This document shows, one piece after another, positions 7,651-37,516 of a stretch of 42,123 nt of DNA. The notes beneath the pieces are model-generated. The model was not told where the DNA came from. It worked only from the letters and a program-made list of their open reading frames with translations, and made no database searches. Location: positions 1-42,123 of the IMG/VR virus record IMGVR_UViG_3300014827_000005; one strand, written 5' to 3'. Each line of letters begins with the position of its first letter. The first letter of the stretch is position 1. A program made the position numbers and the translations under genes. The stretch is from a virus.

Positions 7651-8523
7651 ATGTCACTACAAGGTGAAGACCTCTCACATTGGCAATCGACAGGCACCGT
7701 AGACGGTAGCCCTGACTTTGTCATTCTAAAAGCAACTGGAGGCGACAGCGGTCTCTATGTAGACTCTGATTGCGATAATAAATATCAACGTGCTAAGTCC
7801 GAAGGAAAACTGCTTGGTATCTACCACTTTGCAGGTATGGGCGATCCTATTCAGGAAGCCAACTACTTCGTAGACAACTGCCTTGGTTACATCGGTGAAG
7901 CTATTCTGGTCCTTGACTTTGAAACCAACACCAACGTCGCTTGGGCTAAACAATGGCTTGACCAAGTCTACCTACGTACTGGTGTTAAACCACTTATTTA
8001 CCTGAGCGCAAGTACGATTAAAGAAGCTGACTGGACACCTGTCGTCGCTGGAGACTATGGTCTCTGGGTCGCTGGATATCCTGCTCAGTATGACGTCCGT
8101 AACCCTAACCGTACCGATGGTTCCGACCTTCCATACGATGTCAGTCCTTGGGCTTTCGCTGCTATCTGGCAGTTCACTAGCTCCGCTGGTACCCTTGACG
8201 AGGACGTCGCTATGATGTCTGCTGACGCATGGCACCTATACGCTAACCGTACCGACGTTGTTTCACAGGTTCCCGCACCTGCTCCTACGCCAGCCCCCGA
8301 ACCAACACCTGAACCCGTTACCCCTCCCGTACCAGACCCAGTCATACCTCCGGTTGTACCTGATCCTGTACCACTACCTGATCCCGGTACAGTCATTACC
8401 CCAACCCCAGACCCCACTCCAGCACCAACGCCTGAGCCTACACCGGCTCCTGTAACCGTGTCTAAGTGGCAAACACTAATCAACGCTATCCTTCGGTTCC
8501 TAAAGGCCGTCTGGAACGCTTAG
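7651..8523 (+). CDS. GH25 muramidase endolysin
   Basis: A 290-aa endolysin with Shine-Dalgarno AAAGGAG upstream. Residues 1-200 form a glycoside hydrolase family 25 domain. D7 lies in EDLSHWQ, the D89-x-E91 pair in VLDFET is the expected catalytic motif, and VAGYPAQ and WQFTSS are further family landmarks. Residues about 206-268 are a Pro-rich linker of PxPEPT-like units. The last 20 residues form an amphipathic helix (WQTLINAILRFLKAVWNA) that may contact the membrane or wall. GH25 enzymes cut the MurNAc-GlcNAc bond of peptidoglycan. There is no signal peptide, so release needs a holin, and candidates follow directly downstream. Enzymes of this kind are common in phages of Gram-positive-type hosts. 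Confidence 0.93.
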   Translation: MSLQGEDLSHWQSTGTVDGSPDFVILKATGGDSGLYVDSDCDNKYQRAKSEGKLLGIYHFAGMGDPIQEANYFVDNCLGYIGEAILVLDFETNTNVAWAKQWLDQVYLRTGVKPLIYLSASTIKEADWTPVVAGDYGLWVAGYPAQYDVRNPNRTDGSDLPYDVSPWAFAAIWQFTSSAGTLDEDVAMMSADAWHLYANRTDVVSQVPAPAPTPAPEPTPEPVTPPVPDPVIPPVVPDPVPLPDPGTVITPTPDPTPAPTPEPTPAPVTVSKWQTLINAILRFLKAVWNA

Positions 8524-12016: not shown

Positions 12017-12216
12017 TAACTTAACCCGTTTTCCTCATTCAGTGCGTCAATGCGATCTTCATACTCATCTACCTGTTCTTGCAGGTCTTCTATTATCTGA
12101 TTGAGGTCATTGACAACTTCATTATGGTCTGAGTTAATATCTTCTATCTGACCACATGCCGGGCAGTTTCTACCCGAATAAGCTATGTCGTCTCCATGTT
12201 CGCCGCAAGTGTCCAT
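12016..12216 (-). CDS. Small zinc-finger coiled-coil protein
   Basis: A 66-aa acidic protein. C4 and H7, then C18-PAC21, suggest a small zinc site, followed by a coiled coil (NDLNQIIEDLQEQVDEYEDRI). Its ATG shares the base with the kinase stop. Function unknown. Confidence 0.7.
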   Translation of the reverse strand: MDTCGEHGDDIAYSGRNCPACGQIEDINSDHNEVVNDLNQIIEDLQEQVDEYEDRIDALNEENGLS

Positions 12217-13103
12217 TAGAAATCTCCTTCTGCTACTTGTAGCACTTTAAGTCCTTCTTCACGCCACATCTTCACGACACGGTCTCGGTCATCTAAGACG
12301 AAGCGTACGTTGTATCGTGGCTCGATCCATTCTTTGTAAATATCACGCTTAATGATGGCGTCGTTGATACGATTGCCTTTTTCATCCACAATGGTTTCGT
12401 CACGCATGAAAATCTCATCGTAAGGAATTTGGTTAGCCTTGAGCCATGCTTCAGTCTCGGGCTTGCAAGTACTATCCCTGCCGCTAACAATAACGATGTA
12501 GGTATCTGGAATCTCTTCCTGTATGTTACGGCCAGCATAACGCCAGACCACATCACGTACGTTCTCGTCCACAATATCTGTAGAGACCTTCGTGTAGTCG
12601 TATGGAGACCGGTCATCTATGTGTGCCAGTGTGCCATCTATGTCAACTATGATACAATGAGGGAAACCCTCTTTGAAGGGTGGTTTTACATATTGTGCGA
12701 CATGCCCTTTTTTCTTCAGGAACGTGTTGTACATCGACTTGATTACCTTTTCACCTACGGCATTTGCCCGTTCTGAGTCCCTTTTGAGGCACGTAGAGAG
12801 CGTTACGTCCGTGAAGTCCTTAATCTCGAACTGACACTGGAAACCATCAGCCATGTCTATGAGTGCAGCTTCGTGCTTAGGGTCCAAATTAGTATCATCT
12901 ACAATCACATCATGCCCACGAGCTAGGTAGTGCCGGATGATAGCGTCACGGACGCCTAGAATATCCTTCTCGTTAGACTTTGACCAAACACTATTGTCAA
13001 TCATGGCCCGGAGGTCATCTTTGTTGACACGTTTTGCTTTTTGTTCTTTCGCCCATGTGGACTTACCGCTTGCTGGTAGACCTTTTGTCATTATTAGTCG
13101 CAT
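12216..13103 (-). CDS. Polynucleotide 5'-kinase / 3'-phosphatase
   Basis: A protein close in plan and length (295 aa from the ATG at 13103) to T4 Pnkp, which heals RNA ends by phosphorylating the 5'-OH and removing the 3'-phosphate. The kinase P-loop is GLPASGKST near the N-terminus, with DVIVDDTNLD further on. The C-terminal half is a HAD phosphatase with DIDGTLA and later VSGRDS and DDRDRV. The frame extends to 13121, but the start MRLIMTKG aligns best with T4; ATG at 13091 is also possible. Located beside a nucleotidyltransferase and an RNA ligase, so it very likely prepares broken RNA for sealing. Confidence 0.93.
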   Translation of the reverse strand: MRLIMTKGLPASGKSTWAKEQKAKRVNKDDLRAMIDNSVWSKSNEKDILGVRDAIIRHYLARGHDVIVDDTNLDPKHEAALIDMADGFQCQFEIKDFTDVTLSTCLKRDSERANAVGEKVIKSMYNTFLKKKGHVAQYVKPPFKEGFPHCIIVDIDGTLAHIDDRSPYDYTKVSTDIVDENVRDVVWRYAGRNIQEEIPDTYIVIVSGRDSTCKPETEAWLKANQIPYDEIFMRDETIVDEKGNRINDAIIKRDIYKEWIEPRYNVRFVLDDRDRVVKMWREEGLKVLQVAEGDF

Positions 13104-13831
13104 AATTCGTCGTACATCCATGCTTTCTCGGCTTCAGGTGTGCCGCTCATATAGGCTCGGTAAATGAAATCTTCGATCCATTCAATATCCGGCTTCATGT
13201 TTTTATATTTACTGGTGCTCTCTGCAACGCTGACACGCATATTCATGTCAGACATCGCCGCTACAATCTCAGGGAGGTAGGGTTGGATGGCTTCGACAGA
13301 GAGAGGCTTAATTGTCTTGAGCAGAGGAAACAAATCACTATCCGCAAGGTTGCACTCAAACTTACCTGTAAGCAGGAATTGTTCGCACTGCCACATAACC
13401 CGCAGGAAAGCGACTGCAAACTTGGCTGTTCGTTCTTGTCCATTTACGCCCTTCGACTCGAAGTTGTAGAACTTGTTCCACTGGTTGTGGGCATAGCCTC
13501 GGCTTGCATCGACAAACATTTTCGTATCAACGAATTTGCTCCAGTTAGCCCGCATCTCCTCGGCCACAGGAGAGGTCTCGGTGACTTTGTCTGAGAAGAA
13601 TACTTCAAGTATTGTTGCATTTCCTTTGGTAGCGAGTTTACAAAACTCTGCAAGTTCGTAGCTGGTGTTGTCTTCATCGCCTTCTATCCATGTTGTGTTC
13701 TTTAATGTTTTGAATGGGCTGACCACGTCTTTCAGTTCGCTTACGTGGATGCCACGATAGTCCCAGTCAGACGTCGGAGTGTCGAGCCCGTGTAAACGGG
13801 ACCCGACGACAACCTTAGTCAGAATCTTCAT
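13094..13831 (-). CDS. Nucleotidyltransferase of the RNA-repair cluster
   Basis: A 245-aa protein with a polymerase-beta-type nucleotidyltransferase signature near the N-terminus: GSRLHG at 10-15, then SDWDYRG with D22 and D24 as likely metal ligands. It resembles the RlaP-type transferases found next to RNA ligases. It might add nucleotides to RNA ends before ligation, but the substrate is not known. It overlaps the kinase start by a few bases and shares the base pattern ATGA with the membrane gene upstream. Confidence 0.8.
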   Translation of the reverse strand: MKILTKVVVGSRLHGLDTPTSDWDYRGIHVSELKDVVSPFKTLKNTTWIEGDEDNTSYELAEFCKLATKGNATILEVFFSDKVTETSPVAEEMRANWSKFVDTKMFVDASRGYAHNQWNKFYNFESKGVNGQERTAKFAVAFLRVMWQCEQFLLTGKFECNLADSDLFPLLKTIKPLSVEAIQPYLPEIVAAMSDMNMRVSVAESTSKYKNMKPDIEWIEDFIYRAYMSGTPEAEKAWMYDELCD

Positions 13832-14022
13832 GAACTAACGCTTCCGAACAAGATTCCCATAATGAACGTCACGAGCACTGAAGGCCAAAAGGCAATCGCT
13901 AGTGCTGTAGCGTGGAATATGTGGGCAAGTGCCCCGAGGCAAAGCATGGTAACCCATCCGCCTATTAGGAACGCAGGAGCCAAGATAGCGGCTACGGCAA
14001 TAAGTGTTATTAAGACTTTCAT
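13828..14022 (-). CDS. Small three-span membrane protein
   Basis: A 64-aa, almost wholly hydrophobic protein (ILAPAFLIGGWVTMLCLGALAH and LVTFIMGILFG). It lies between the RNA ligase and the nucleotidyltransferase with four-base overlaps on both sides, so it is produced with them. Function unknown; it could link repair to the membrane or simply be a passenger. Confidence 0.75.
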   Translation of the reverse strand: MKVLITLIAVAAILAPAFLIGGWVTMLCLGALAHIFHATALAIAFWPSVLVTFIMGILFGSVSS

Positions 14023-15293
14023 TCTGTTGTACTTCCTTCGACTTCAAGGTCTTCAGCTTCTTCGTCAATCATGGCTGACTCGTGAGCATAGAACTTTTCG
14101 CCTTTAGCTTTTAATATGTATGGTGCAAGCATGTCCACACGGATGCAGATACCTTCGTCTACTGGACTCTCTTTATCCAGTGGTACGGCTCCGGCATAGC
14201 CTTCTTCGTGAAAACGCTTGTCGATGTATTCGGAGACGATCTCTTCCTCTGTAGGCATAGGACCGCTGTACAGCTCTGGGACGGTATTCAGACCACGGTC
14301 ATGGCAGAACTCTTTGGTCTGCTCCCATGACAGGTCAGTGACTATCCCCTGATTGTTGACAAAAGCAACCCGATACACGTACAGATCGCATGTTCGGTTT
14401 GGTACTTGGTAAGTGTAATTCTTCTGGAGCGGAGCACCCTCTTTTGTCCAGCCGACCAGTTCCCCATATACGAGGAAGTTTTCAGGTAGCGAGCCGGATA
14501 GTTTCGCACCCTCTTCGGTCCAAATGTCTGAGTTGTAGAAGTGGTTCTGGTTGGGGTTGTTAATATCCTTAATAACCTTGCGAGAGCCAAACACGTAGTC
14601 CATCTCTGTATCAGCGACCTTAACACCTGCACGTTTCGCTACCTTGTCACGCCAACTAAGTTTGCGAGCAACAACAGTATTACCGATTCGTATGGATGTA
14701 CCATGTAGCTTTTGAGTAATAGTAACCCAACGGCCGGTGGAAATAACTTCAGTATTCCGAAAGTAATTGTCTGTGTCATAGTGCTCGGGGAGGAATTTTT
14801 TATCGACTCGGACGAACTTTTCTTTGTTTTTTTCAATTCGTTGTTCCCTTCGTGTACGTGGAAGTACGTACTTTTTACATATTTCGCTGTCACCAATCTT
14901 GTCGAAGGTGTCTCCAACCTTGAACTGGGTGATGTCTAAGTTCTTAATATAGGACAGGCTCTCTAAGGGCATAAATAAGGCATCTGAGCGGTGTCCACGG
15001 AACTTCATGGCCCGGACCCGTCGGTTATCTTCTAAGTAGCCCTTGGAACCTTCATTGTCGTTAAGGTTGCCGTGGCGGTGCAGGTTGTTCTTACGGGCAT
15101 ACTCTTCGCTTAGTTGAGTCTCAGCCGTGAAAACAATTCCCAAGTCACCCTGTTCCGTGTCTTTACCAACGATAGCCTGAAATCCAAGCAGTGGTGTACC
15201 CACCACGTTATCACAGCCCGCAAGGTCAGTAAGCGACTTGATCTCCACAACTTGCGCTGCATAATTACTGTTTTCTGGCTCGAGTAGTTTCAT
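14019..15293 (-). CDS. RNA ligase (Rnl5/DraRnl-like)
   Basis: A 424-aa nucleotidyltransferase-fold ligase. Motif I, QKLHGTS, puts the AMP-accepting lysine at 195; NFLVYGELVGW is the motif III region; DEGICIRVD and KAKGEKF near the C-terminus are motifs IV and V. About 190 residues precede motif I, which suits the Deinococcus-type ligases with an N-terminal OB domain rather than T4 Rnl1 or Rnl2. It would join 5'-phosphate and 3'-OH RNA ends made by the kinase/phosphatase. The C-terminus ends acidic (DEEAEDLEVEGSTTE). Confidence 0.9.
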   Translation of the reverse strand: MKLLEPENSNYAAQVVEIKSLTDLAGCDNVVGTPLLGFQAIVGKDTEQGDLGIVFTAETQLSEEYARKNNLHRHGNLNDNEGSKGYLEDNRRVRAMKFRGHRSDALFMPLESLSYIKNLDITQFKVGDTFDKIGDSEICKKYVLPRTRREQRIEKNKEKFVRVDKKFLPEHYDTDNYFRNTEVISTGRWVTITQKLHGTSIRIGNTVVARKLSWRDKVAKRAGVKVADTEMDYVFGSRKVIKDINNPNQNHFYNSDIWTEEGAKLSGSLPENFLVYGELVGWTKEGAPLQKNYTYQVPNRTCDLYVYRVAFVNNQGIVTDLSWEQTKEFCHDRGLNTVPELYSGPMPTEEEIVSEYIDKRFHEEGYAGAVPLDKESPVDEGICIRVDMLAPYILKAKGEKFYAHESAMIDEEAEDLEVEGSTTE

Positions 15294-27360: not shown

Positions 27361-27435
27361 TGCGGGATAGAGCAGTGGCAGCTCGTCGGCCTCATAAGCC
27401 GAAGGTCGTGGGTTCGAGTCCCACTCCCGCTACCA
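27361..27435 (+). tRNA. tRNA-Met (CAT), initiator-like
   Basis: Cloverleaf: acceptor TGCGGGA/TCCCGCT with an unpaired T1-T72, D arm GAGC/GCTC, anticodon stem TCGGC/GCCGA with loop CTCATAA, T arm GTGGG/CCCAC, then ACCA. The D-stem to anticodon region (GCTCGTCGGnCTCATAA) closely follows bacterial initiator tRNA, and the lack of a 1-72 pair is the hallmark of initiators. CCA is encoded. Confidence 0.85.
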
Positions 27436-27439
27436 AGCA

Positions 27440-27468
27440 TTGACAAAACATAAGAAGTATGCTAGTAT
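27440..27468 (+). promoter_or_regulatory. Sigma70-type promoter of small RNA D
   Basis: TTGACA (27440-27445), 17-base spacer ending TGC, TAGTAT (27463-27468), four bases after the initiator-like tRNA. Confidence 0.75.
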
Positions 27469-27474
27469 TAGAGC

Positions 27475-27632
27475 AAAGGTTCTTTAATGACCACGTGTTC
27501 TTCCCTAGAAAAGTAAACAGGTCCTTGTAAACTATCATGACAAACTATCAACTCAATCAGCCGGATACTAACTCCACCCAGTAGGGCCTGATTATAATTT
27601 GTCAACTGTAAGCCCCTACACGGGGCTTTTTT
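27475..27632 (+). ncRNA. Candidate small RNA D (about 155 nt)
   Basis: Bounded by the promoter at 27440 and the terminator at 27611-27632. Only tiny frames occur: nine codons at 27488 and fifteen codons at 27538 (MTNYQLNQPDTNSTQ), neither with a good ribosome site. It splits the initiator-like tRNA from the other seven tRNAs. Function unknown. Confidence 0.55.
27611..27632 (+). terminator. Intrinsic terminator of small RNA D
   Basis: AGCCCC (27611-27616), loop TACAC, GGGGCT (27622-27627), then six T. The tRNA-Pro begins six bases later, so the downstream tRNAs need readthrough or a promoter not recognised here. Confidence 0.88.
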
Positions 27633-27637
27633 ATTAT

Positions 27638-27711
27638 CTTAGTGTAGTGTAACGGTAACACGGGGGTCTTGGATACCTCAATCGGAAGTTCAACTCTTCT
27701 CACTTTGACCA
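27638..27711 (+). tRNA. tRNA-Pro (TGG)
   Basis: D arm GTGT/ACAC, anticodon stem GGGGT/ACCTC with loop CTTGGAT (anticodon TGG), T arm GGAAG/CTTCT, CCA encoded. The acceptor CTTAGTG/CACTTTG has two T-T mismatches, so folding is imperfect. Confidence 0.7.
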
Positions 27712-27785
27712 TAAGTTGTAGAATCAGGCGATAGGACCAAACTGTAAATTTGGGACCGACGGTTCGAGTCCGTCCTACTTCACCA
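27712..27785 (+). tRNA. tRNA-Tyr (GTA), short variable arm
   Basis: Anticodon stem CCAAA/TTTGG with loop CTGTAAA, T arm GACGG/CCGTC, CCA encoded. It follows the previous tRNA with no spacer. The variable region is about four bases, whereas bacterial tRNA-Tyr normally has a long arm. The D arm (GAATCAGGCGATAGGA) pairs poorly and the acceptor TAAGTTG/CTACTTC has mismatches. Confidence 0.7.
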
Positions 27786-27862
27786 GCCGATGTGACGTAA
27801 TTGGTAAACGTACGGAGCTTAGACCTCCGGTTCTGTCAGTTCGAGTCTGACCATCGGTACCA
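27786..27862 (+). tRNA. tRNA-Leu (TAG anticodon), short variable arm
   Basis: Acceptor GCCGATG/CATCGGT, D arm ACGT/ACGT, anticodon stem CGGAG/CTCCG with loop CTTAGAC, T arm GTCAG/CTGAC, CCA encoded; abuts the tRNA-Tyr. The anticodon TAG reads the CTA leucine codon. The variable region is only about five bases, against ten or more for usual bacterial tRNA-Leu. Charging identity is therefore uncertain. Confidence 0.75.
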
Positions 27863-27936
27863 CCCGGCAAAGTGTTAGGGCAGCACGTCTCCTTGTCAGG
27901 GAGAGGGCACGAGTTCAACTCTCGTTGTCGGGGCCA
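27863..27936 (+). tRNA. tRNA-Asp (GTC)
   Basis: Acceptor CCCGGCA/TGTCGGG, D arm GTGT/GCAC, anticodon stem TCTCC/GGAGA with loop TTGTCAG, T arm ACGAG/CTCGT, CCA encoded. Directly abuts the tRNA-Leu. Confidence 0.85.
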
Positions 27937-27939
27937 TTA

Positions 27940-28014
27940 CCCTAGGCAGCTCATCGGTAGAGCAAGACCCTGTTAAGGTCGAGGCGGTAGGTTCGATTCC
28001 TACCCTAGGGGCCA
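27940..28014 (+). tRNA. tRNA-Asn (GTT)
   Basis: Acceptor CCCTAGG/CCTAGGG, D arm GCTC/GAGC, anticodon loop CTGTTAA (GTT), T arm GTAGG/CCTAC, CCA encoded. The anticodon stem has one terminal A-G mismatch. Confidence 0.88.
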
Positions 28015-28019
28015 GATAT

Positions 28020-28095
28020 GTTGGAGGTCGTCCAATGGTTAGGACGTCAGCCTGTGACGCTGAAGATGCGAGTTCGATCCTCGTCTTCCACCCCA
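28020..28095 (+). tRNA. tRNA-His (GTG)
   Basis: D arm GTCC/GGAC, anticodon stem TCAGC/GCTGA with loop CTGTGAC (GTG), T arm CGAG/CTCG, CCA encoded. A G precedes position 1 and faces C73, as needed for histidine identity. One acceptor mismatch (T1-C72). Confidence 0.85.
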
Positions 28096-28098
28096 AGT

Positions 28099-28174
28099 AT
28101 GGGAGTAGACAAATGGTAAAGTCGCCGGGCTTTGAACCCGGAGCGTGTAGGTTCAAGCCCTACCTCCCATGCCA
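28099..28174 (+). tRNA. tRNA-Gln (TTG)
   Basis: Acceptor ATGGGAG/CTCCCAT, D arm GAC/GTC, anticodon stem CCGGG/CCCGG with loop CTTTGAA (TTG), T arm GTAGG/CCTAC, CCA encoded. Confidence 0.88.
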
Positions 28175-28492: not shown

Positions 28493-28540
28493 ATGAAAAA
28501 GATGTTAGATGCCACTACTGCTCCCGAATCCACACGCTAA
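28493..28540 (+). CDS. 15-aa leader peptide overlapping terL
   Basis: ATG 28493 in the sequence ACAAAATG, the spacing used by other starts here, opens MKKMLDATTAPESTR and stops at 28540, inside terL in another frame. It may couple or regulate terL translation, or it may be the true N-terminus of terL if a frameshift occurs. Confidence 0.4.
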   Translation: MKKMLDATTAPESTR

Positions 28541-29855
28541 ACAAGCCGCCTTCCTCGGCGACCCACACCGTTACAAGGTCCTTAACTGGGGCCGACGTAC
28601 TGGTAAATCTGTAGCCGTCTGGGAGAAGGTCGTCCTCGAGGGGATGCTCCGGCAGGGCACATACTACATCATCGCTCCAACTTACAAGCAAGCCAAGTCT
28701 ATTTACTGGCGTGACATCTGTAAGCGTTACAAAGGCGAGTTCATGACTTTTAATGAACAGGAACTCTCCATCACCTTCGATATTCTAACTGATGGTGAGA
28801 TTATGACTCAGGCCGGTCCAATCAAGATTAACCACGATCCCGACCTGCCACCAACCCGCATCGAACTTAAGGGTGCTGATAACCCTGATACCCTCCGTGG
28901 TACTGGTATCTCCGGTGCCGTCATGGATGAGTACGCCTTCATGAACGACGGTAAGTATCTGTATGACACTATTATCCGCCCTGCCCTATCTGACAAGAAT
29001 GGTTGGGCTATTTTTATCTCTACCCCAAATGGTGTTTATAATCACTTTTACGACCTTTGTCAAACTGCTCAGTCTGATCCTGAGATGTACTACTTCTCTC
29101 ACGCTACCGCCCTTGACAACTCCTACTTCCCGCAGCAAGAGTTCCAAGATACCCGCCGAGAGTACGAAAAAGAAGGCAAGCTCGACCAATTTAATCAGGA
29201 GTGGATGGCTGAGTTTTCTAACCCTACACAGCTTATTTATGGTGAATTTGACAGAAATGTCCATGTATTGCCAAGTAAAGATTTTGATGACCAACTCCCA
29301 GTACAGGGAACATATAATGCTTCTATCGACTTTGGTATGACTGACCCGACAGCCGCAGGTTTCGTGAAGATTGACTACGAGGGTAATTGGTGGGTCTACG
29401 ATGAGATTTACCAGCCTGATTTACACCTTGACCAGCTCGTCTATGTCCTTCGTGACAAGATGGGTGATGACCACTTTAGCCGCATATTAGGAGATGGGGC
29501 CGCTCGTTTTGAGCTTGAATCGCTTCGTGCCCGTAGATTCCGTATTACCGCTGCCAAGAAGGGTGCCGACTCCATTTTCAATGGTATTAAAGAAGTCAAA
29601 GCTCTACTTGCAATCCGCCAAGACACTGGCAAACCAAAGATATTCATTCGTGCTTCCTGTAAGAACCTAATTAAAGAGTTTGAATCATACTCGTGGATTA
29701 GAGACCAATTCGGGGAGATCACAAATGTTGCAGAAGATAAAAATAACCACGCAATGGACTGGGTCCGGTATCTAGCAATGGACCGTGCAACCCCAGTTAA
29801 ACGTGAAAAAAGGAAAAGAGAGTATGACCCAGTCACCGGACGGCCCCTCAACTGA
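28509..29855 (+). CDS. terL: Terminase large subunit
   Basis: A 448-aa packaging motor. Walker A is NWGRRTGKS (about residues 25-33); GAVMDEYAFM near 135 is Walker B with its Glu. The C-terminal RNase H-like nuclease has SIDFGMTDPT near 270, ILGDGAAR near 325 and NHAMDWVRY near 415. It pumps DNA into the capsid and cuts concatemers. The chosen ATG (28509) has only a weak ribosome site. The last codons overlap the next gene by 32 bases. Confidence 0.93.
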   Translation: MPLLLPNPHAKQAAFLGDPHRYKVLNWGRRTGKSVAVWEKVVLEGMLRQGTYYIIAPTYKQAKSIYWRDICKRYKGEFMTFNEQELSITFDILTDGEIMTQAGPIKINHDPDLPPTRIELKGADNPDTLRGTGISGAVMDEYAFMNDGKYLYDTIIRPALSDKNGWAIFISTPNGVYNHFYDLCQTAQSDPEMYYFSHATALDNSYFPQQEFQDTRREYEKEGKLDQFNQEWMAEFSNPTQLIYGEFDRNVHVLPSKDFDDQLPVQGTYNASIDFGMTDPTAAGFVKIDYEGNWWVYDEIYQPDLHLDQLVYVLRDKMGDDHFSRILGDGAARFELESLRARRFRITAAKKGADSIFNGIKEVKALLAIRQDTGKPKIFIRASCKNLIKEFESYSWIRDQFGEITNVAEDKNNHAMDWVRYLAMDRATPVKREKRKREYDPVTGRPLN

Positions 29856-30111
29856 GCTCGAGCCGTACAAAACTAGTGATACACCATATGCAGCGTTCCT
29901 GCACTATAGTGGACACAAAATTGTGGGTTCCAAACAGGACCCCAACGACTACAAACGGGAAGTTCTTATCTTCATTTTTACCGACGAAATCCTAGACCTT
30001 GAACAGGAATGGCGTGTCGGTAAGGCAATCGGAGACCTGAAAAGGTACCACCGCTCGCTGAAGATAGTCAACCGTGTCGTAAATGAAAATCGTAAAAAAA
30101 GGGACAACTAA
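29824..30111 (+). CDS. DUF5659-like small protein
   Basis: A 95-aa protein from ATG 29824, preferred over 29785 because of GGAAAAGAGAGT spacing and a smaller overlap. The pattern YKTSDTPYAAFLHYSGHKIVG followed by beta strand and helix matches my memory of DUF5659 (TSDxxxAAFLxxxGHKL). Its function is unknown. Stop TAA overlaps the next ATG. Confidence 0.7.
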   Translation: MTQSPDGPSTELEPYKTSDTPYAAFLHYSGHKIVGSKQDPNDYKREVLIFIFTDEILDLEQEWRVGKAIGDLKRYHRSLKIVNRVVNENRKKRDN

Positions 30112-30200
30112 TGAGCATATTCGGAGACATCTTAGGACTACCGTTTGAAATTATAGAAGACGTCGCTGGCGACATCAAAGATGTATTGGAGGAGCTATAA
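30111..30200 (+). CDS. 29-aa small acidic peptide
   Basis: Overlapping starts and stops (TAATG at both ends) place a 29-codon gene here: MSIFGDILGLPFEIIEDVAG at the start and KDVLEEL at the end. Amphipathic. It couples translation of the DUF5659-like gene and the glycosyltransferase. GGAGG near its end serves the next gene. Confidence 0.6.
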   Translation: MSIFGDILGLPFEIIEDVAGDIKDVLEEL

Positions 30201-31879
30201 TGCCAACAATTTCACTCCAGATGATAGTGAAGGACGAGTTCGATCAAGTCGCACTGCTCGTTCAAAATGCCGTAGATTACTTCGATGAAGTGAATTTAAC
30301 CGTTTCAGATAAATCAACCGCTGACAAACTGGCTAAGATTGCCAAAGCAGTCCCTCGTGTTCATGTGAAACACCGTGCATGGAACAATCGCTTTGATGAT
30401 GCCCGTAACGACAACTTCATGATGTGTACCTCGGACTACGCCTTCTGGCTTGACTCCGATGATACCTTTGATTTCACTACCATACCGGAAATCCTTGACC
30501 TTGCAGTACGTAACCACATCGACGCCCTGTTCCTACCATACAACTACGCTCAAGACGAAGACGGCAACTGCATCACTAAACAGTATCGAGAGCGCTTACT
30601 CCGCATGGCCTCAGGTTTCACGTGGAAAGGATGGGTTCACGAGACCCCAATCTGGCCTTCTACCAACTATGTCAGCCATATCCTCGATAGCCCTGAAGTT
30701 ACGCACAATATGACCGAAGGACACACCGAAAGCTCCGTTGCCCGCAACCACGCTATCCTCGAAGAAGCTTACAAAGTCGATGATGACCCCCGAATTATCC
30801 ACTATTACGGTATGTCACTGTTCACTAAAGGTGAATATGCTAAGTCAATCAGCGTCTTACACGACTATTTACAGGTTGGTGGCTCTCAAGAGGACATTTA
30901 CCGTGCTCTGTCGCTAATTAGTGAATCTGCCTACCATCTCGACAAGTTTGACCTTGCACTCGAGTTCGCAACTAAGGCTGCAACCCTCAAACCTGCCTAT
31001 CCTATGGCTTTCTGGCTCCTTGCTCAGTATGAAGCCGATCAGGGAAACTGGCCCGAAGCACTTGAGTGGGTAAAAGTCTCTATGACCAAGGAAGACCCCA
31101 AAACTCTGTCCGTATGGGACCCCAGCGCCCGTGAACGTGCTATCTTAATCGGTGCTCAAGCTGAATTTATGCAACAGCACTACAACACTGCTCTTCAGTG
31201 GCTCCGTAAAATACCTCGAAATGCTGATGCTATCGAACTTATGGATGGTTTCATCGAAGAAGCCGACGCTGAGACATTCGTCAAGCTATTACCTAAGATT
31301 CGCAAGTTTTTCTACAATGATAACTACTTATGGGAAGCTCTCTGCCGTGATATGCAGTACGATACCCGGCTCCAGTCACTCCGTTTCGCTACTCACAAGC
31401 CTAAAAAGTGGGCTGATGACTCTATTGTCATCTTCTGCGGTGAAGGTTATGAAGAGTGGGGACCTCAGACGATGGATAAGGGCATGGGTGGTTCCGAAGA
31501 GGCAGTTATCTACCTCTCACGTGAGCTTTCCAAGCTTGGCTACGACGTCACCGTCTTCGGTGAAGTGCCACACCCAACTGCTGATGTGACCCTTGAACCA
31601 AAGGAATACAACGTCAAGTACCGTCCTTGGAAGGAAATCGACAACCGTGACGAGTTTAACATCTTCGTCGCATGGCGAGCACCACAATACCTCGAACTTG
31701 TCAAGGCAAAGGTCAAACTAGCCGACATTCACGACATCATCCCCGAACAGGTCGTCAAAGACATCGAAGGTGCTACTTACATGTTTAAGAGCGACTACCA
31801 CCGTGACCTATACAAGCCTGTTGACTCACGAGTCGTCGGCAACGGTATCGCAAAGGTACAGTTCGATGACAAAGCTTGA
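30200..31879 (+). CDS. GT2-TPR-GT4(N-half) glycosyltransferase
   Basis: A 559-aa multidomain protein. Residues 1-190 are a GT2 transferase (MIVKDE at start, FWLDSDDTFD as the DxD metal site, WKGWVHE). About 195-370 are TPR-like helical repeats (YGMSLFTKGEYAKSISVL, ALEFATKAATLKPAYPMAFWLLAQYE). About 395-559 form the N-terminal Rossmann half of a GT4 enzyme (GMGGSEEAVIYLSRELSKLGYDVTVFGE). It ends VVGNGIAKVQFDDKA, right at the usual linker between the GT4 halves. The matching C-half is encoded at 33674-34243, beyond groEL. It probably modifies virion proteins or other phage products with sugars. Confidence 0.85.
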   Translation: MPTISLQMIVKDEFDQVALLVQNAVDYFDEVNLTVSDKSTADKLAKIAKAVPRVHVKHRAWNNRFDDARNDNFMMCTSDYAFWLDSDDTFDFTTIPEILDLAVRNHIDALFLPYNYAQDEDGNCITKQYRERLLRMASGFTWKGWVHETPIWPSTNYVSHILDSPEVTHNMTEGHTESSVARNHAILEEAYKVDDDPRIIHYYGMSLFTKGEYAKSISVLHDYLQVGGSQEDIYRALSLISESAYHLDKFDLALEFATKAATLKPAYPMAFWLLAQYEADQGNWPEALEWVKVSMTKEDPKTLSVWDPSARERAILIGAQAEFMQQHYNTALQWLRKIPRNADAIELMDGFIEEADAETFVKLLPKIRKFFYNDNYLWEALCRDMQYDTRLQSLRFATHKPKKWADDSIVIFCGEGYEEWGPQTMDKGMGGSEEAVIYLSRELSKLGYDVTVFGEVPHPTADVTLEPKEYNVKYRPWKEIDNRDEFNIFVAWRAPQYLELVKAKVKLADIHDIIPEQVVKDIEGATYMFKSDYHRDLYKPVDSRVVGNGIAKVQFDDKA

Positions 31880-32009
31880 AATGTATGTCAAGCGCCTCCA
31901 GACCGTCCAGAACATGACGGAGGACCTCGCTGCTAAGGAATTAGCCGAGATACTCATGGACATCTTAGAAGATATGAATAAAAACGAAATGGGATTCAAA
32001 GCAAAATGA
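31866..32009 (+). CDS. 47-aa helical protein
   Basis: ATG 31866 lies 14 bases before the glycosyltransferase stop. The product (MTKLEMYVKRLQTVQNMTED...LMDILEDMNKN) is a short helical, acidic protein. Its TGA overlaps the next ATG (ATGA). No family recognised. Confidence 0.65.
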   Translation: MTKLEMYVKRLQTVQNMTEDLAAKELAEILMDILEDMNKNEMGFKAK

Positions 32010-32128
32010 CACCGACAAAAATCATCCAGATAGCCCCATCTACCAGTTTAGTCTACGGACTAGGCGATGATGGCCTACTGTACTACTGGAACACAAACAT
32101 TAACGACTGGACACTTGTAAAAGCATGA
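32006..32128 (+). CDS. 40-aa beta-type small protein
   Basis: ATG 32006, within ATGA, to TGA 32128, whose ATGA contains the groEL start. The product MTPTKIIQIAPSTSLVYGLG... continues with LLYYWNTNINDWTLVKA. It resembles small phage proteins with a YGLGDDGxLYxW core, possibly a WD-like strand. Its place next to groEL may be chance or coupling. Confidence 0.7.
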   Translation: MTPTKIIQIAPSTSLVYGLGDDGLLYYWNTNINDWTLVKA

Positions 32129-33693
32129 AAAAGCAGATCATAACTGGCGATGAAGCCAAGAAACAACTCCTAGAAGGTGCCAAGCTGCTCTATGACGCAG
32201 TTTCTAGCACTCTCGGTCCTAAGGGCCAAAACGCTGTTATTGAAGCCTATGGCGAACCAATCGTGACGCACGATGGCGTAACAGTCGCTAAATCTATTGA
32301 AAACGTCAAGGATTGCTCTCCCGGTGCCCGTGTTGGTATCGAGATGATTAAATCGTCCTCGAGCAAGACTAACGACAACGTAGGTGATGGTACGACTAGT
32401 TCTACCATCCTCGCCTATCACCTGATGGATGGCGGTATGACCCGTATCCAAGCCGGTAAGAACGCTATGATGCTCCGCAGGGAGCTAGACACTGCCGCTG
32501 AAGCAGTCCTCAAGGCTGTAGACAAGCTCAGTACCAAGATCAAGACCGAAAAAGAGACCGTTGAAATCGCAACTATCTCTAGTGAGAACCATGACATCGG
32601 CAAAGAAGTCGGCCACATGTACCACGTACTTGGCAAAGACGGCATGGTTGTTGTTGAAATCGGCCAGAAACCCGTTATTGAGTACGAAATTGTAGAGGGT
32701 TATACCTTCGACCAAGGTCTCCTTAACCCATTACTAGTGACTGATCCACGGACCCAAACCAGTGCTGTGAAGCATCCTGTAGTCCTCGTATGCCACCAGA
32801 CTGTCGGCCTAATCGACGTGTTCCAACTCTGCCAAGACCTCTATAACGCAGGTCGTGACGGCATTGTAATCATCTGTGATGACTTCAAGAATGACCTTCT
32901 CGACTGGGCAGTCCAGCGTCAGGGTGAGTTCGACGTCATCGGTGTCAAGTCACCGGGCTTTGGTGAACAGCGCATGGAACGCCTCAAAGACCTCGCTGCC
33001 TTCGTCGGCACCGAAGCCGTAGGTAACAAGTTCCCTAAGAAAATCTCTGACCTAAAGGCTACTGACCTCGGCACTTGTGAAGAAATCGTCGTCAGCCTGT
33101 CTGAGACCGTCATCACTGGCGGGGGAGACGTCGCTGATTACGTTAGCGAATTACAGGCAAAACTGAAGGTAACTAAGGGTGAGTTCGACCGTAACAAGAT
33201 TGAGAAGCGTATCGCTCAGATGAAAGCCCAAGTCGGTCAAATCCGTGTCGGTGGTAACACTGAAATGGAAGCCGAAGAACGCAAGTATCTTGTGGATGAT
33301 GCTGTAGCCGCCACAGAAGCCGCTCTAAAGGACGGAATCGTCCCGGGTGGTGGAATGACCTACCTTCGCCTTGCAAACGAGCTACAGAGCTCTACAGACG
33401 GTGCAGCGCTGCTTAAAGAAGCACTCGAAGCACCATTCAAAGTCCTGATGACTAATGCTGGCCTTCGTTATGGCAAACAACTACAAGCACTCGAAGGGCT
33501 TGAGTACGGCACTGGTTACGATATTATGGGCGATCCTGAAACCCCTGTGAACCTAAAAGAACATGGGATCATTGACCCCGTCATGGTGATTAAGCAGACC
33601 ATCACCAATGCTGTATCTGTGGCTGGGTCTGCCTTAACTACGGGCGTACTAATTACTAGAGAAGAGGAAAAAGATGACAAAGAAGAGGATTAA
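32125..33693 (+). CDS. groEL: GroEL-type (group I) chaperonin
   Basis: A 522-aa chaperonin covering the full group I length. LGPKGQN (30-36), D50 in THDGVTVAK, and GDGTT (87-91, D88) are the ATP-site residues. VDDAVAATEAALKDGIVPGGG near 395 includes the catalytic Asp of the intermediate domain. The apical domain includes EGYTFDQGLL and FGEQRMERLKDLA. The C-terminus is EEEKDDKEED instead of the flexible GGM repeats. It would fold phage proteins (capsid or the cassette enzymes) in ATP-driven cycles. No groES is found, so it may use the host cochaperonin or work without one, as shown for some large-phage chaperonins. Confidence 0.96.
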   Translation: MKKQIITGDEAKKQLLEGAKLLYDAVSSTLGPKGQNAVIEAYGEPIVTHDGVTVAKSIENVKDCSPGARVGIEMIKSSSSKTNDNVGDGTTSSTILAYHLMDGGMTRIQAGKNAMMLRRELDTAAEAVLKAVDKLSTKIKTEKETVEIATISSENHDIGKEVGHMYHVLGKDGMVVVEIGQKPVIEYEIVEGYTFDQGLLNPLLVTDPRTQTSAVKHPVVLVCHQTVGLIDVFQLCQDLYNAGRDGIVIICDDFKNDLLDWAVQRQGEFDVIGVKSPGFGEQRMERLKDLAAFVGTEAVGNKFPKKISDLKATDLGTCEEIVVSLSETVITGGGDVADYVSELQAKLKVTKGEFDRNKIEKRIAQMKAQVGQIRVGGNTEMEAEERKYLVDDAVAATEAALKDGIVPGGGMTYLRLANELQSSTDGAALLKEALEAPFKVLMTNAGLRYGKQLQALEGLEYGTGYDIMGDPETPVNLKEHGIIDPVMVIKQTITNAVSVAGSALTTGVLITREEEKDDKEED

Positions 33694-34243
33694 CAGTGTT
33701 GGATACTTTTCAGCATACTACCGTGGACTTGAATGTCTGCTTAACATGTGGCCGGAGATTAGGCGGGGTGTTCCAAACGCCACGCTCGACGTCTATTACG
33801 GGTGGGAGTCTTGGGTTGGCCTCGAAGGTGAGGATGACTTTTACCACCGGATGTGTGCCAAATTCGAGGAGCTCAAATCTGAGGGTGTCACCGTTCACGG
33901 ACGTGTCTCGCACGAAGAACTTGCTAAGGCCATGAAAGAAATTCAGGTCTGGGCCTACCCGACTGAGTTCCAAGAAATCCACTGTATTACAGCCCTGAAA
34001 GCCCAAGAAGCTGGCTGCTACCCTGTTGTAACCGCTGTAGGTGCCCTGAAAGAGACCGTCCAATGTGGCGATAAGATCAGGACCCAGAAGATTTACACTG
34101 ACCAGTACAAGCAGGAGAAGTTCGCAGCCGCAGTCATCTCCGCATTAAAGGAAAAGAAAACCGGCACACCAGTACCAAACGTAGACTGGGCAGATGTCGC
34201 AAAACAATGGGACGCAGTAATCAAGGAGAAACAAAGTGTCTGA
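33674..34243 (+). CDS. GT4 glycosyltransferase, C-terminal half
   Basis: A 189-aa protein made only of the C-terminal Rossmann domain of a GT4 enzyme. INSVGYFSAYYRGLECLLNMWPEIRR begins it, VTVHGRVSHEELAKAMKEIQVWAYPTEFQEIHCITALKAQEAG holds the conserved donor-binding region with its Glu pair. It lacks the N-terminal acceptor domain, which is present at the end of the 30200-31879 protein. Overlaps groEL by 20 bases. A paired enzyme is likely. Confidence 0.88.
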   Translation: MTKKRINSVGYFSAYYRGLECLLNMWPEIRRGVPNATLDVYYGWESWVGLEGEDDFYHRMCAKFEELKSEGVTVHGRVSHEELAKAMKEIQVWAYPTEFQEIHCITALKAQEAGCYPVVTAVGALKETVQCGDKIRTQKIYTDQYKQEKFAAAVISALKEKKTGTPVPNVDWADVAKQWDAVIKEKQSV

Positions 34244-34475
34244 ACGCACCGCTAAACGGCTCCGTCGTGAAAACGCCGGACAACCCGAGAAACCAAAACA
34301 ATACTTTAAGCCCTTCACTATTCCACTTCCTACTGGGGAAATCAAAGATGGTGAAAAAGTCATGGTAGACACCTATATCCCACGCACTCAGAAGCGTAAG
34401 GCTATGCGGGCTATGATGGCTGACATTCGGAAAGGACGTCTCTATGGTAGGCAACAACAAAGAAAAGGACTTTAG
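34236..34475 (+). CDS. Small basic protein (79 aa)
   Basis: Starts with GTG at 34236 (AAGGAG upstream), overlapping the previous stop by eight bases. Strongly basic (MSERTAKRLRRENAGQPEKPKQ, RTQKRKAMRAMMADIRKGR). Probably binds nucleic acid or sits with the cassette. No family recognised. Confidence 0.65.
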   Translation: MSERTAKRLRRENAGQPEKPKQYFKPFTIPLPTGEIKDGEKVMVDTYIPRTQKRKAMRAMMADIRKGRLYGRQQQRKGL

Positions 34476-35223: not shown

Positions 35224-37239
35224 ATGGCTAAGAAAAAAGAAGACAAGTCCACTACTGGTACAGTGTGGCAGGAACGCTTCGAGAATCGCAAGATCAAGCA
35301 ACGTCAAATGTTTGAAGATGCCAAGAAGTACTACGACATCATGTATGCCACGCAGGATACACAGAAAATATCACCGTGGAAATCTAAAGTATACGTTCCT
35401 ATTCTCGCCAGCAAAGCTTGGGACCTCATTGCCCGCATGTCTGACGTTGTACCACTCTTTGATGTCGTCATCAAGAACGAACTAGAACTCGGTGAAGACG
35501 GCAACTTCCAGAAGAGCCAAGGCGTCGAAGAGCGTGAACAACGCATCGAAGCTAAACTCCAATATGACTACCAGTGCGGCCACGAAGAGCCTATGAAACT
35601 GAAGGTATTTGACCCATTAGTGGATGCAGTCGTAGCCGGTACAGGCTATGCTTATGCTCCGTGGATGTTCGAGGAAAAGAAAGCCTATGGCCGTCAATTT
35701 GACGAAATGGGTACGATGGACAACGAAAACACTGTCACCAAGACACAGTCTACCGGACACAATGGTTTCGAGCCTGTCAACTTCTTCAACGTCTTCCCAG
35801 CCGATGGCCCTAGCTTCTTCAAGATTCCTTACCTAATCGTCCGTGGCTACAAGCCTAAAGTCGAGATGGAACTAGCTGGCCTGTACGAAAACCTCGACAA
35901 ATGTGACACCGGCCCTCGTGAACCCGTAGATGAGTTTACTCTCTACAACCAGTCCCGTGACCGTGTTCTGAACGAACTCGACATGGTCTCTATGGATGAC
36001 ACCGTTGAGATGATTACCTACTACGAGTGTTACGAAAAGACTGCTGATGGCATCAGCCTCACTACCTATGCTGAAGGTCTCGCTGACGAAGCTATTGACA
36101 GCCCTGACGATGCCCCTTGGGTAGCAATCCGACCTAAGAGTGTCCCTTACTGGCACAATATGTACCCAGTCGTACCATTCTACTGCCGTCGTAAGAGCTT
36201 CTCGCCATTCGGTGAGTCTCTGTTTGAGAACAACCGTACCCTCCAATCTGCTACTAACGACCTCTTCAACCACTACCTAGACAACTGGAACCTATCCATT
36301 GAGTCTATGCTGATGTACGAAGACGGCACCCTGACTAATGACTTCATCATTGAGCCGGGAGGTGAAATTACATTTACTGGTGAGCCACCTAAGCAGTTTA
36401 AGTTCCCAGAACCAAACCCAACCCAGCTATCGCTCGTCATGAACGTACTCGAAAAGGGTATCGACAACGCTACCTTTAGCCCTTACGCAGCTGGTAACCC
36501 ATCTGACGGCAACGACAAGACCCAAGGCACCGCATATGGTGTTAAGTCTATCACCGAAGCCGCTACGACTAAGATCGGTTTCTTCCGTGACAACTTCAAG
36601 CAGTCCATGAAAATCATCGGCCGCATCTGGCTATCGAACCTACAGCAATTCTCTGATGACCCTGCTGAAATCCAGCGTACTCAGAATGGCAAATCTATCC
36701 CTGACGTAGTCCTACCTAGCGATTACCAAGGTGAGCTCGAACTAGACATTGACGACGACTCGATGACCCCGCTTTCTAAGCAGGATAAGCTCGACGCCAA
36801 CGACCGCTTTGTCAACACTATGCTGATGCTCCAAAAGGCATCTATGGCCCAAGCCCAAGCCTTCGCATCACCATCTGACATTACTCGGTTCAACTTCCAT
36901 GAGATGGCAGAAGACACCGCAGAGCTAATGGGTAAGAAGGACTTCAATCATTACCTGATGGACAGTTCTACCCCGCCACCACAGCCACAAGGCCAACAAC
37001 GTGATCCTAAAGAGCTACTTAACTTTAGCTACAAGGATGCCCCAGCCGACATCCAAGCACAAATAGAAGCACTGTACGGCTTCCAGCCGTCTTCATTACA
37101 CGGCCAAGCAACTACTACGGCCGCAATGCAGCACGGAGTAACTCAGTCCCAGATACATAACGGAGACCCCACAGGGGCAAAATTAAATGGCACTAACCAA
37201 CAAACAAATCCAGCAACGGGTGGACTGGCGCAAAGCTAA
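35224..37239 (+). CDS. Portal protein
   Basis: A 671-aa protein, the size and helical/acidic style of podoviral portals. MAKKKEDKSTTG start, YVPILASKAWDLIARMSDV early, PFYCRRKSFSPFGESLFENNRTLQSATNDLFNHYLDNW in the middle, SITEAATTKIGFFRDNFKQSM later, then a Gln-rich tail. It forms the dodecameric ring at the packaging vertex. Good AAAGGA ribosome site. The last 53 bases overlap endonuclease VII. Confidence 0.9.
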   Translation: MAKKKEDKSTTGTVWQERFENRKIKQRQMFEDAKKYYDIMYATQDTQKISPWKSKVYVPILASKAWDLIARMSDVVPLFDVVIKNELELGEDGNFQKSQGVEEREQRIEAKLQYDYQCGHEEPMKLKVFDPLVDAVVAGTGYAYAPWMFEEKKAYGRQFDEMGTMDNENTVTKTQSTGHNGFEPVNFFNVFPADGPSFFKIPYLIVRGYKPKVEMELAGLYENLDKCDTGPREPVDEFTLYNQSRDRVLNELDMVSMDDTVEMITYYECYEKTADGISLTTYAEGLADEAIDSPDDAPWVAIRPKSVPYWHNMYPVVPFYCRRKSFSPFGESLFENNRTLQSATNDLFNHYLDNWNLSIESMLMYEDGTLTNDFIIEPGGEITFTGEPPKQFKFPEPNPTQLSLVMNVLEKGIDNATFSPYAAGNPSDGNDKTQGTAYGVKSITEAATTKIGFFRDNFKQSMKIIGRIWLSNLQQFSDDPAEIQRTQNGKSIPDVVLPSDYQGELELDIDDDSMTPLSKQDKLDANDRFVNTMLMLQKASMAQAQAFASPSDITRFNFHEMAEDTAELMGKKDFNHYLMDSSTPPPQPQGQQRDPKELLNFSYKDAPADIQAQIEALYGFQPSSLHGQATTTAAMQHGVTQSQIHNGDPTGAKLNGTNQQTNPATGGLAQS

Positions 37240-37516
37240 TCCCGAGAAAGCTAGGCTTATAGGCTGGAGATATGAACTCAAAAGTCTCTACGGTATCACT
37301 GTGGAGCAATATGAAGCAATGCTTGAACTCCAAAATGGCGTTTGCGCTATATGTGGAGGTATCAATACACGTAAATTAAAGCTCGCTGTAGATCACGACC
37401 ACGATACCGGTAAAGTCCGTGGCCTACTATGTGACAGATGTAACCGTGGCATAGGTCTACTAAGAGACTCGAATAACATTACTAATGCACTCAAATACTT
37501 GGAGGAAAACAAATGA
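37187..37516 (+). CDS. Endonuclease VII-like HNH nuclease
   Basis: A 109-aa protein with CAICGG and CDRCNRG flanking LAVDHDHDTGKVRGLL, the His-Me core of the T4 endonuclease VII family (gp49), which resolves branched DNA before packaging. Placement within the portal/scaffold region is odd and suggests a mobile or packaging-linked role. Starts in a different frame inside the end of portal. Confidence 0.92.
   Translation: MALTNKQIQQRVDWRKANPEKARLIGWRYELKSLYGITVEQYEAMLELQNGVCAICGGINTRKLKLAVDHDHDTGKVRGLLCDRCNRGIGLLRDSNNITNALKYLEENK

Follow-up and report, generated by a model that had tools for sequence, protein, structure and literature searches.

A phage GT4-like glycosyltransferase gene divided at its domain joint, with a chaperonin gene in the gap

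Phage enzymes encoded in pieces are known from the NrdA of Aeh1, where the homing endonuclease mobE lies within nrdA, and from the T4-like polymerase 43A/43B of phage 25; in both cases the function is kept (PMC2988022, PMC3653736). Glycosyltransferases of the GT-B fold may also be split: Alg13/Alg14 of eukaryotes and EpsE/EpsF of bacteria are MurG-like GT-B enzymes of which fused and split forms occur (PMC4973528). In the insertional fission of mitochondrial cox2, an insertion yields two complementary products from one gene (PMC5374615). The locus presented here unites the phage genes-in-pieces with the split GT-B enzymes. It is found in a 42,123-base virus record with tailed-phage head genes, from a virus of bacteria (IMGVR_UViG_3300014827_000005; this whole stretch is called the window below). 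In the window the two halves of a GT4-like glycosyltransferase are encoded by separate genes, and a groEL gene is located between them.

It is important to compare this arrangement with the described systems. As in Aeh1 NrdA and 43A/43B, a phage enzyme gene that is contiguous in relatives is present as two open reading frames (ORFs); the known pieces assemble into an active enzyme, and those of the window would be expected to do so. Unlike the Aeh1 case, the insert contains no homing endonuclease and consists of groEL and small genes, with other cargo or none in relatives. Unlike both phage systems, the break falls at the joint between two domains and is met again in many lineages. The position between the N- and C-terminal domains is shared with Alg13/Alg14 and EpsE/EpsF. 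However, those enzymes belong to the MurG family and have a membrane anchor in the N-terminal part, while the window enzyme is GT4-like, matches a different Pfam family, has its N-half attached to a GT2-TPR protein, is phage-borne, and has genes lodged in its gap. The cox2 case differs in concerning an organelle gene and a different enzyme, with no chaperonin. The window chaperonin is similar to the phage GroEL of PHROG 5725 in being a full-length group I chaperonin for which no phage GroES was found, but the latter stands alone and the former lies between the halves of one enzyme. The literature searched contained no phage glycosyltransferase split by groEL, no recurrent phage GT-B fission and no chaperonin as an insert; the chaperonin in the gap and the recurrence set this case apart.

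The genes concerned are as follows.

30200-31879, plus strand: GT2 (residues ~1-180), TPR (~180-400) and the N-terminal Rossmann half of the GT4-like enzyme (~404-559), here the N-half; identified by Pfam, PHROG 13126, fused orthologues and the AlphaFold2 model of the fused relative L010
31866-32009, plus strand: small gene s1, 47 amino acids; 14-base overlap with the N-half; homologues in the same slot of L009 and L024
32006-32128, plus strand: small gene s2, 40 amino acids; ATGA overlap at each end; homologues in the slot of L006, L007, L008, L021 and L116/L120
32125-33693, plus strand: groEL, group I chaperonin, 522 amino acids; identified by Pfam, PHROG and ATPase motifs
33674-34243, plus strand: C-terminal Rossmann half of the GT4-like enzyme, here the C-half, 189 amino acids; identified by Pfam, AlphaFold2 and fold matches; 20-base overlap with the end of groEL

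The ORFs, their ends and the overlaps joining the two small genes and groEL between the halves agree with the original prediction, which had been made from the sequence alone. The overlaps from N-half to C-half are 14, 4, 4 and 20 bases, with no junction lacking one. The first product has 559 residues and its C-terminal end is VVGNGIAKVQFDDKA, the final stretch NGIAKVQF being the inter-domain linker; the N-terminal start of the last product is MTKKRINSVGYFSAYYRGLECLL. For s1, automatic chaining picked the ATG at 31881 (other starts were also picked for some first slot genes elsewhere), and homology to L009 favours the ATG at 31866. A second stretch resembling the s2 family is found at 8218-8319, near the end of an endolysin ORF (7651-8523; E 1e-4). 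In Pfam searches the first protein matches Glycos_transf_2 (1.5e-12), TPR and, in the N-half, Glyco_transf_4 (PF13439; 1e-3, 19.6 bits against a cut-off of 28.5). The last protein matches Glyco_trans_1_4 (PF13692; 2.7e-11, 44.3 bits, above the cut-off of 27). The identity of the N-half would be weak from the Pfam match alone, but the assignment appears firm because in fused relatives a single frame runs through both halves. A scan of the operon for promoters and terminators gave results no different from shuffled sequence and was uninformative.

Relatives (loci numbered with L) were gathered by tblastn of phage records and by IMG/VR scans, with search patterns that partly included Glu101 of the C-half (E101) and the GGSE motif of the N-half. 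Among the phage records, MW202497 (GenBank) has the same split with groEL, while in MW202524, MW202718 and MW202743 a single ORF spans both halves. A fused gene, which the original prediction had proposed to look for in related phages, was found in L010/L011, L015-L017 and MW202524. The single-frame ORF of L010 has 46% identity to the window N-half and 65% to the C-half; the values for L015-L017 are 45% and 56%, and for the more distant MW202524 they are 28% and 40%. In L010/L011 and L015-L017 only 4-8 residues separate the two matched parts, which are in the same frame (the L010 junction is NGIVREQFEHPKPDPNHKVGYFSAYYRG), and the gene order is DUF5659, glycosyltransferase, methyltransferase, then portal where the record extends so far. 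Because frame and gene order agree, the split pair and the fused protein can be taken as orthologous by position and sequence. The split is not a chance or assembly artefact, because the same gene order recurs in ten different contigs including MW202497. A search of bacterial genome contigs gave 40 pattern matches to relatives, none of which was confirmed by tblastn.

The AlphaFold2 model of fused L010 (749 residues) has a mean predicted local distance difference test score (pLDDT) of 94.3 and a predicted template modelling score of 0.78. Residues 408-749 of this model match complete GT-B enzymes, with Z values of 29.4 for 6kih, 27.8 for 7fg9 and 27.7 for PimA (2gej), and also WaaG. The break in the window maps to a coil of the model at about residues 556-569, ahead of the first strand of the C-terminal domain. 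The C-half modelled alone has a pLDDT of 92.4, and its fold matches residues 179-363 of PimA, residues 313-491 of TarM and the free C-terminal domain of Pyrococcus glycogen synthase (2bfw), with Z values of 17-19. These matches emerged by fold search; the sequence profile of the C-half gave no match in the PDB. Since the L010 model matches whole GT-B enzymes and the C-half matches their C-terminal domains, the two halves are modelled as the two domains of one GT-B enzyme, with the break in the inter-domain linker. This supports the original proposal of one GT4-like enzyme opened at its domain boundary; neither of the outcomes that the prediction had named as refuting it (two complete unrelated folds, or relatives that are never fused) was obtained. 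The last helix of GT-B enzymes often packs back onto the N-terminal domain. That of the C-half (residues 172-187, with Trp172 and Trp179 kept) would be a natural clamp onto the N-half. For the whole L010 model the best Foldseek matches are the SunS/ThuS peptide S-glycosyltransferases, consistent with its GT2-TPR part (residues 1-400). The acceptor glycosylated by this part may be a protein, perhaps one of the virion.

The putative active-site residues are distributed over both chains. GGSE of the N-half and Arg17, Gly18 and Glu101 of the C-half are kept in all 31 split loci of the tree described below. In the same 31 loci the C-half is located 3' of the N-half, within about 2 kb and on the same strand. 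The N-C distance correlation is 0.90 for split rows and 0.75 for fused rows. Within the groEL clade the ratio of nonsynonymous to synonymous substitution rates (dN/dS) is about 0.14 in the N-half, while the C-half and groEL both have values of about 0.10, with dS near saturation. Because the halves lie next to each other in constant order, evolve under purifying selection and keep complementary active-site residues, they very likely assemble in trans as a two-polypeptide enzyme; we infer both the assembly and the enzyme activity from these sequence features. An EX7E motif is usual, although not universal, in the C-terminal domain of retaining GT4 enzymes. The window has E101-x7-K109 instead, with Lys in 28 of 31 split and 43 of 51 fused rows. 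Since this form is common to most members, fused and split, it does not appear to be caused by the split. Because EX7E is absent, the enzyme is labelled GT4-like and not a proven GT4 member.

The explanation that we consider very probable is the following. Compared with its fused orthologues, a bifunctional phage glycosyltransferase GT2-TPR-GT4 has been split within the flexible linker that joins the Rossmann domains of its GT4-like module; this split, its position, its recurrence and the selection on both halves are shown by the comparisons made here. The gap would then have become a slot in the transcript, housing two small genes and groEL, each stop codon overlapping the next start. Coupled re-initiation on a single mRNA would yield the N-half, attached to GT2-TPR, and the C-half as a free protein, and the two would join non-covalently as a working GT-B enzyme, to which the N-half brings the GGSE loop and the C-half the donor-sugar site. 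GroEL would be cargo of the slot and not a required assembly factor. Several points weigh against this explanation. The structure predictions cover single chains. With dS saturated, the dN/dS values are a rough sign of purifying selection. The conservation of GGSE and Glu101 is partly due to ascertainment, since both were in the search patterns (Arg17, Gly18, Trp172 and Trp179 were not). The second Glu of EX7E is Lys in most members, which leaves catalysis putative for the whole family. On some branches of the tree the direction may be either fission or re-fusion.

The fission is not confined to the window. Both halves were found in 83 unique loci, 51 fused and 32 split; a split row of insufficient length was dropped from the tree, which therefore has 82 rows with 31 split. 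Seven state changes are needed on this tree, and well supported branches force five of them. A tree built with more care from 37 rows requires five, and the approximately unbiased (AU) test rejects a single clade of all splits with p ~7e-77. The groEL clade has ten members (support 88/93) and is nested in a clade of 16 rows (100/100), in which the six remaining members are fused. Because the tree demands several changes and a single origin of the splits is rejected, fission, perhaps with re-fusions, has taken place repeatedly at the same joint. The opening of the enzyme put forward in the original prediction is therefore retained, but not as a single event; the recurrence across the wider family had been missed. 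It is possible, though distinctly the less probable course, that the family was ancestrally split and that some members were re-fused, the window showing the old state. Slot genes similar to s2 do occur in two separate split clades (the groEL clade and L116/L120), and parsimony is blind to gain versus loss. However, the outgroup lineages, the six nearest sister rows and most deep branches are fused, and re-fusion over an insert requires an exact deletion.

The contents of the gap vary widely. In the groEL clade (the window, L001, L006-L009, L014, L021, L022 and L024) the gap contains groEL alone (L022), groEL with s1- or s2-like genes, or groEL with a metallopeptidase-like gene (L001, L014); an extra gene separates groEL from the C-half in L014. 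Two small genes are found in L012/L013 and L033-L035, two small genes with an N6_N4 DNA methylase in L032 (2031-3284) and L039 (2980-4236), a methyltransferase dependent on S-adenosylmethionine (SAM) in L055, and one small gene in L087, L116 and L120. L116 and L120, which carry the s2-like gene, are splits without groEL. The splits L057, L059, L063, L070, L089 and L131 have no insert, and the stop codon of the N-half overlaps the ATG of the C-half (ATGA).

The groEL of the window is, by its sequence, a full group I chaperonin. It matches Cpn60_TCP1 (PF00118; 4.5e-44, 151 bits), PHROG 5725 and GroEL structures over the full length, with the ATPase motifs GDGTT and VPGGG kept. Its identity is 65% to the protein of MW202497 and 30-35% to other phage GroELs among the matches listed. 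GroES (PF00166) was found in none of ten records (the window and nine other clade members), while the control found rings in 11 of 14; GroES of the host could serve as partner. The original prediction had suggested that the halves reassemble with the help of the chaperonin. A need for this help is not supported: groEL is missing from the gap in 21 of the 31 split loci, seven of these records contain none when searched whole, and other genes fill the same slot. Outside the groEL clade no groEL was found in 19 searched records, fused and split, some of which are fragments; among them are a fused sister of 37.9 kb and a split of 42.8 kb. Because most splits lack groEL in the gap, split enzymes in general do not need chaperonin help. 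A specific role within the window clade is possible. One form of it, which we regard as doubtful, is that the joint is a recurrent fission site and the gap a landing slot for unrelated genes, with the chaperonin recruited in the window clade to help the halves meet. It also seems unlikely that GroEL is a dedicated assembly factor, translated between the halves to capture and join them. In its favour, all ten contigs with groEL in the slot are split, the start of the C-half lies inside the end of groEL in nine, and none of the six fused members of the 16-member clade shows groEL in its record. However, these observations trace to a single evolutionary event and so offer no independent replication. 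The 21 other splits, the gene between groEL and the C-half in L014, and the prediction that the isolated C-half folds well also argue against it.

The halves might have separated, each serving another partner or function. This could be suggested by four groEL-less splits in which the C-half itself is fused to SAM methyltransferase domains (L059:5977-7317, L063:5977-7290, L070:5127-6449 and L074:5374-7980). L074 also has an FkbM methyltransferase ahead of the C-half. Nevertheless, away from contig ends neither half was encountered without the other, and the short distance between the halves in all 31 splits and their correlated divergence make separation improbable. Decay of the GT4 module, leaving the halves as remnants with GT2-TPR alone active, is quite improbable. 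The E-x7-K motif and the N-half Pfam score below the cut-off might point to it, but this motif likewise predominates among fused relatives. In addition, purifying selection acts on both halves, the mean identity of the C-half is 74% against 56% for GT2-TPR, and neither half is interrupted by a stop or frameshift in the ten contigs. It is scarcely credible that a full-length protein is still produced across the insert by intron or intein splicing or by frameshifting: the idea arises because many known split phage genes are due to introns or inteins and found no support, Rfam gave no intron or other family in the window gap at E<=1, Pfam gave no intein-like, HNH or endonuclease domain in the slot proteins (s1, s2 and GroEL), the gap contains three complete genes, and groEL-less splits with a bare ATGA junction occur.

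The genes flanking the split enzyme are as follows.

28509-29855, plus strand: terminase large subunit (TerL); identified by Pfam, PHROG and synteny; upstream synteny marker
29785-30111: DUF5659-like gene, after TerL and before the split glycosyltransferase
34236-34475, plus strand: small gene s3, 79 amino acids, 3' of the C-half; conserved adjoining the C-half in L001, L008 and L014
34444-35130, plus strand: SAM-dependent methyltransferase; identified by Pfam; synteny marker that follows the glycosyltransferase gene in fused and split relatives alike
35224-37239: portal, after the methyltransferase

Eight tRNA genes (Met, Pro, Tyr, Leu, Asp, Asn, His and Gln) are located within 0.8 kb at 27361-28174, directly upstream of TerL, and tRNA arrays have the same position in L006, L007 and L014. 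On the minus strand, adjoining genes for a polynucleotide kinase, a nucleotidyltransferase and an RNA ligase (12216-15293) resemble a tRNA or RNA repair cassette. An Endonuclease VII-like HNH gene (37187-37516) overlaps the end of the portal gene and is also found 3' of portal in L001.

In the related phages this enzyme occurs in a natural series of forms: as a single chain, as two genes that abut, and as two genes separated by a chaperonin, a DNA methylase or a SAM methyltransferase. Such a series allows direct tests of how an enzyme of two domains withstands the loss of its linker, of the way in which the fission of a gene is tolerated and of how gaps turn into insertion sites.

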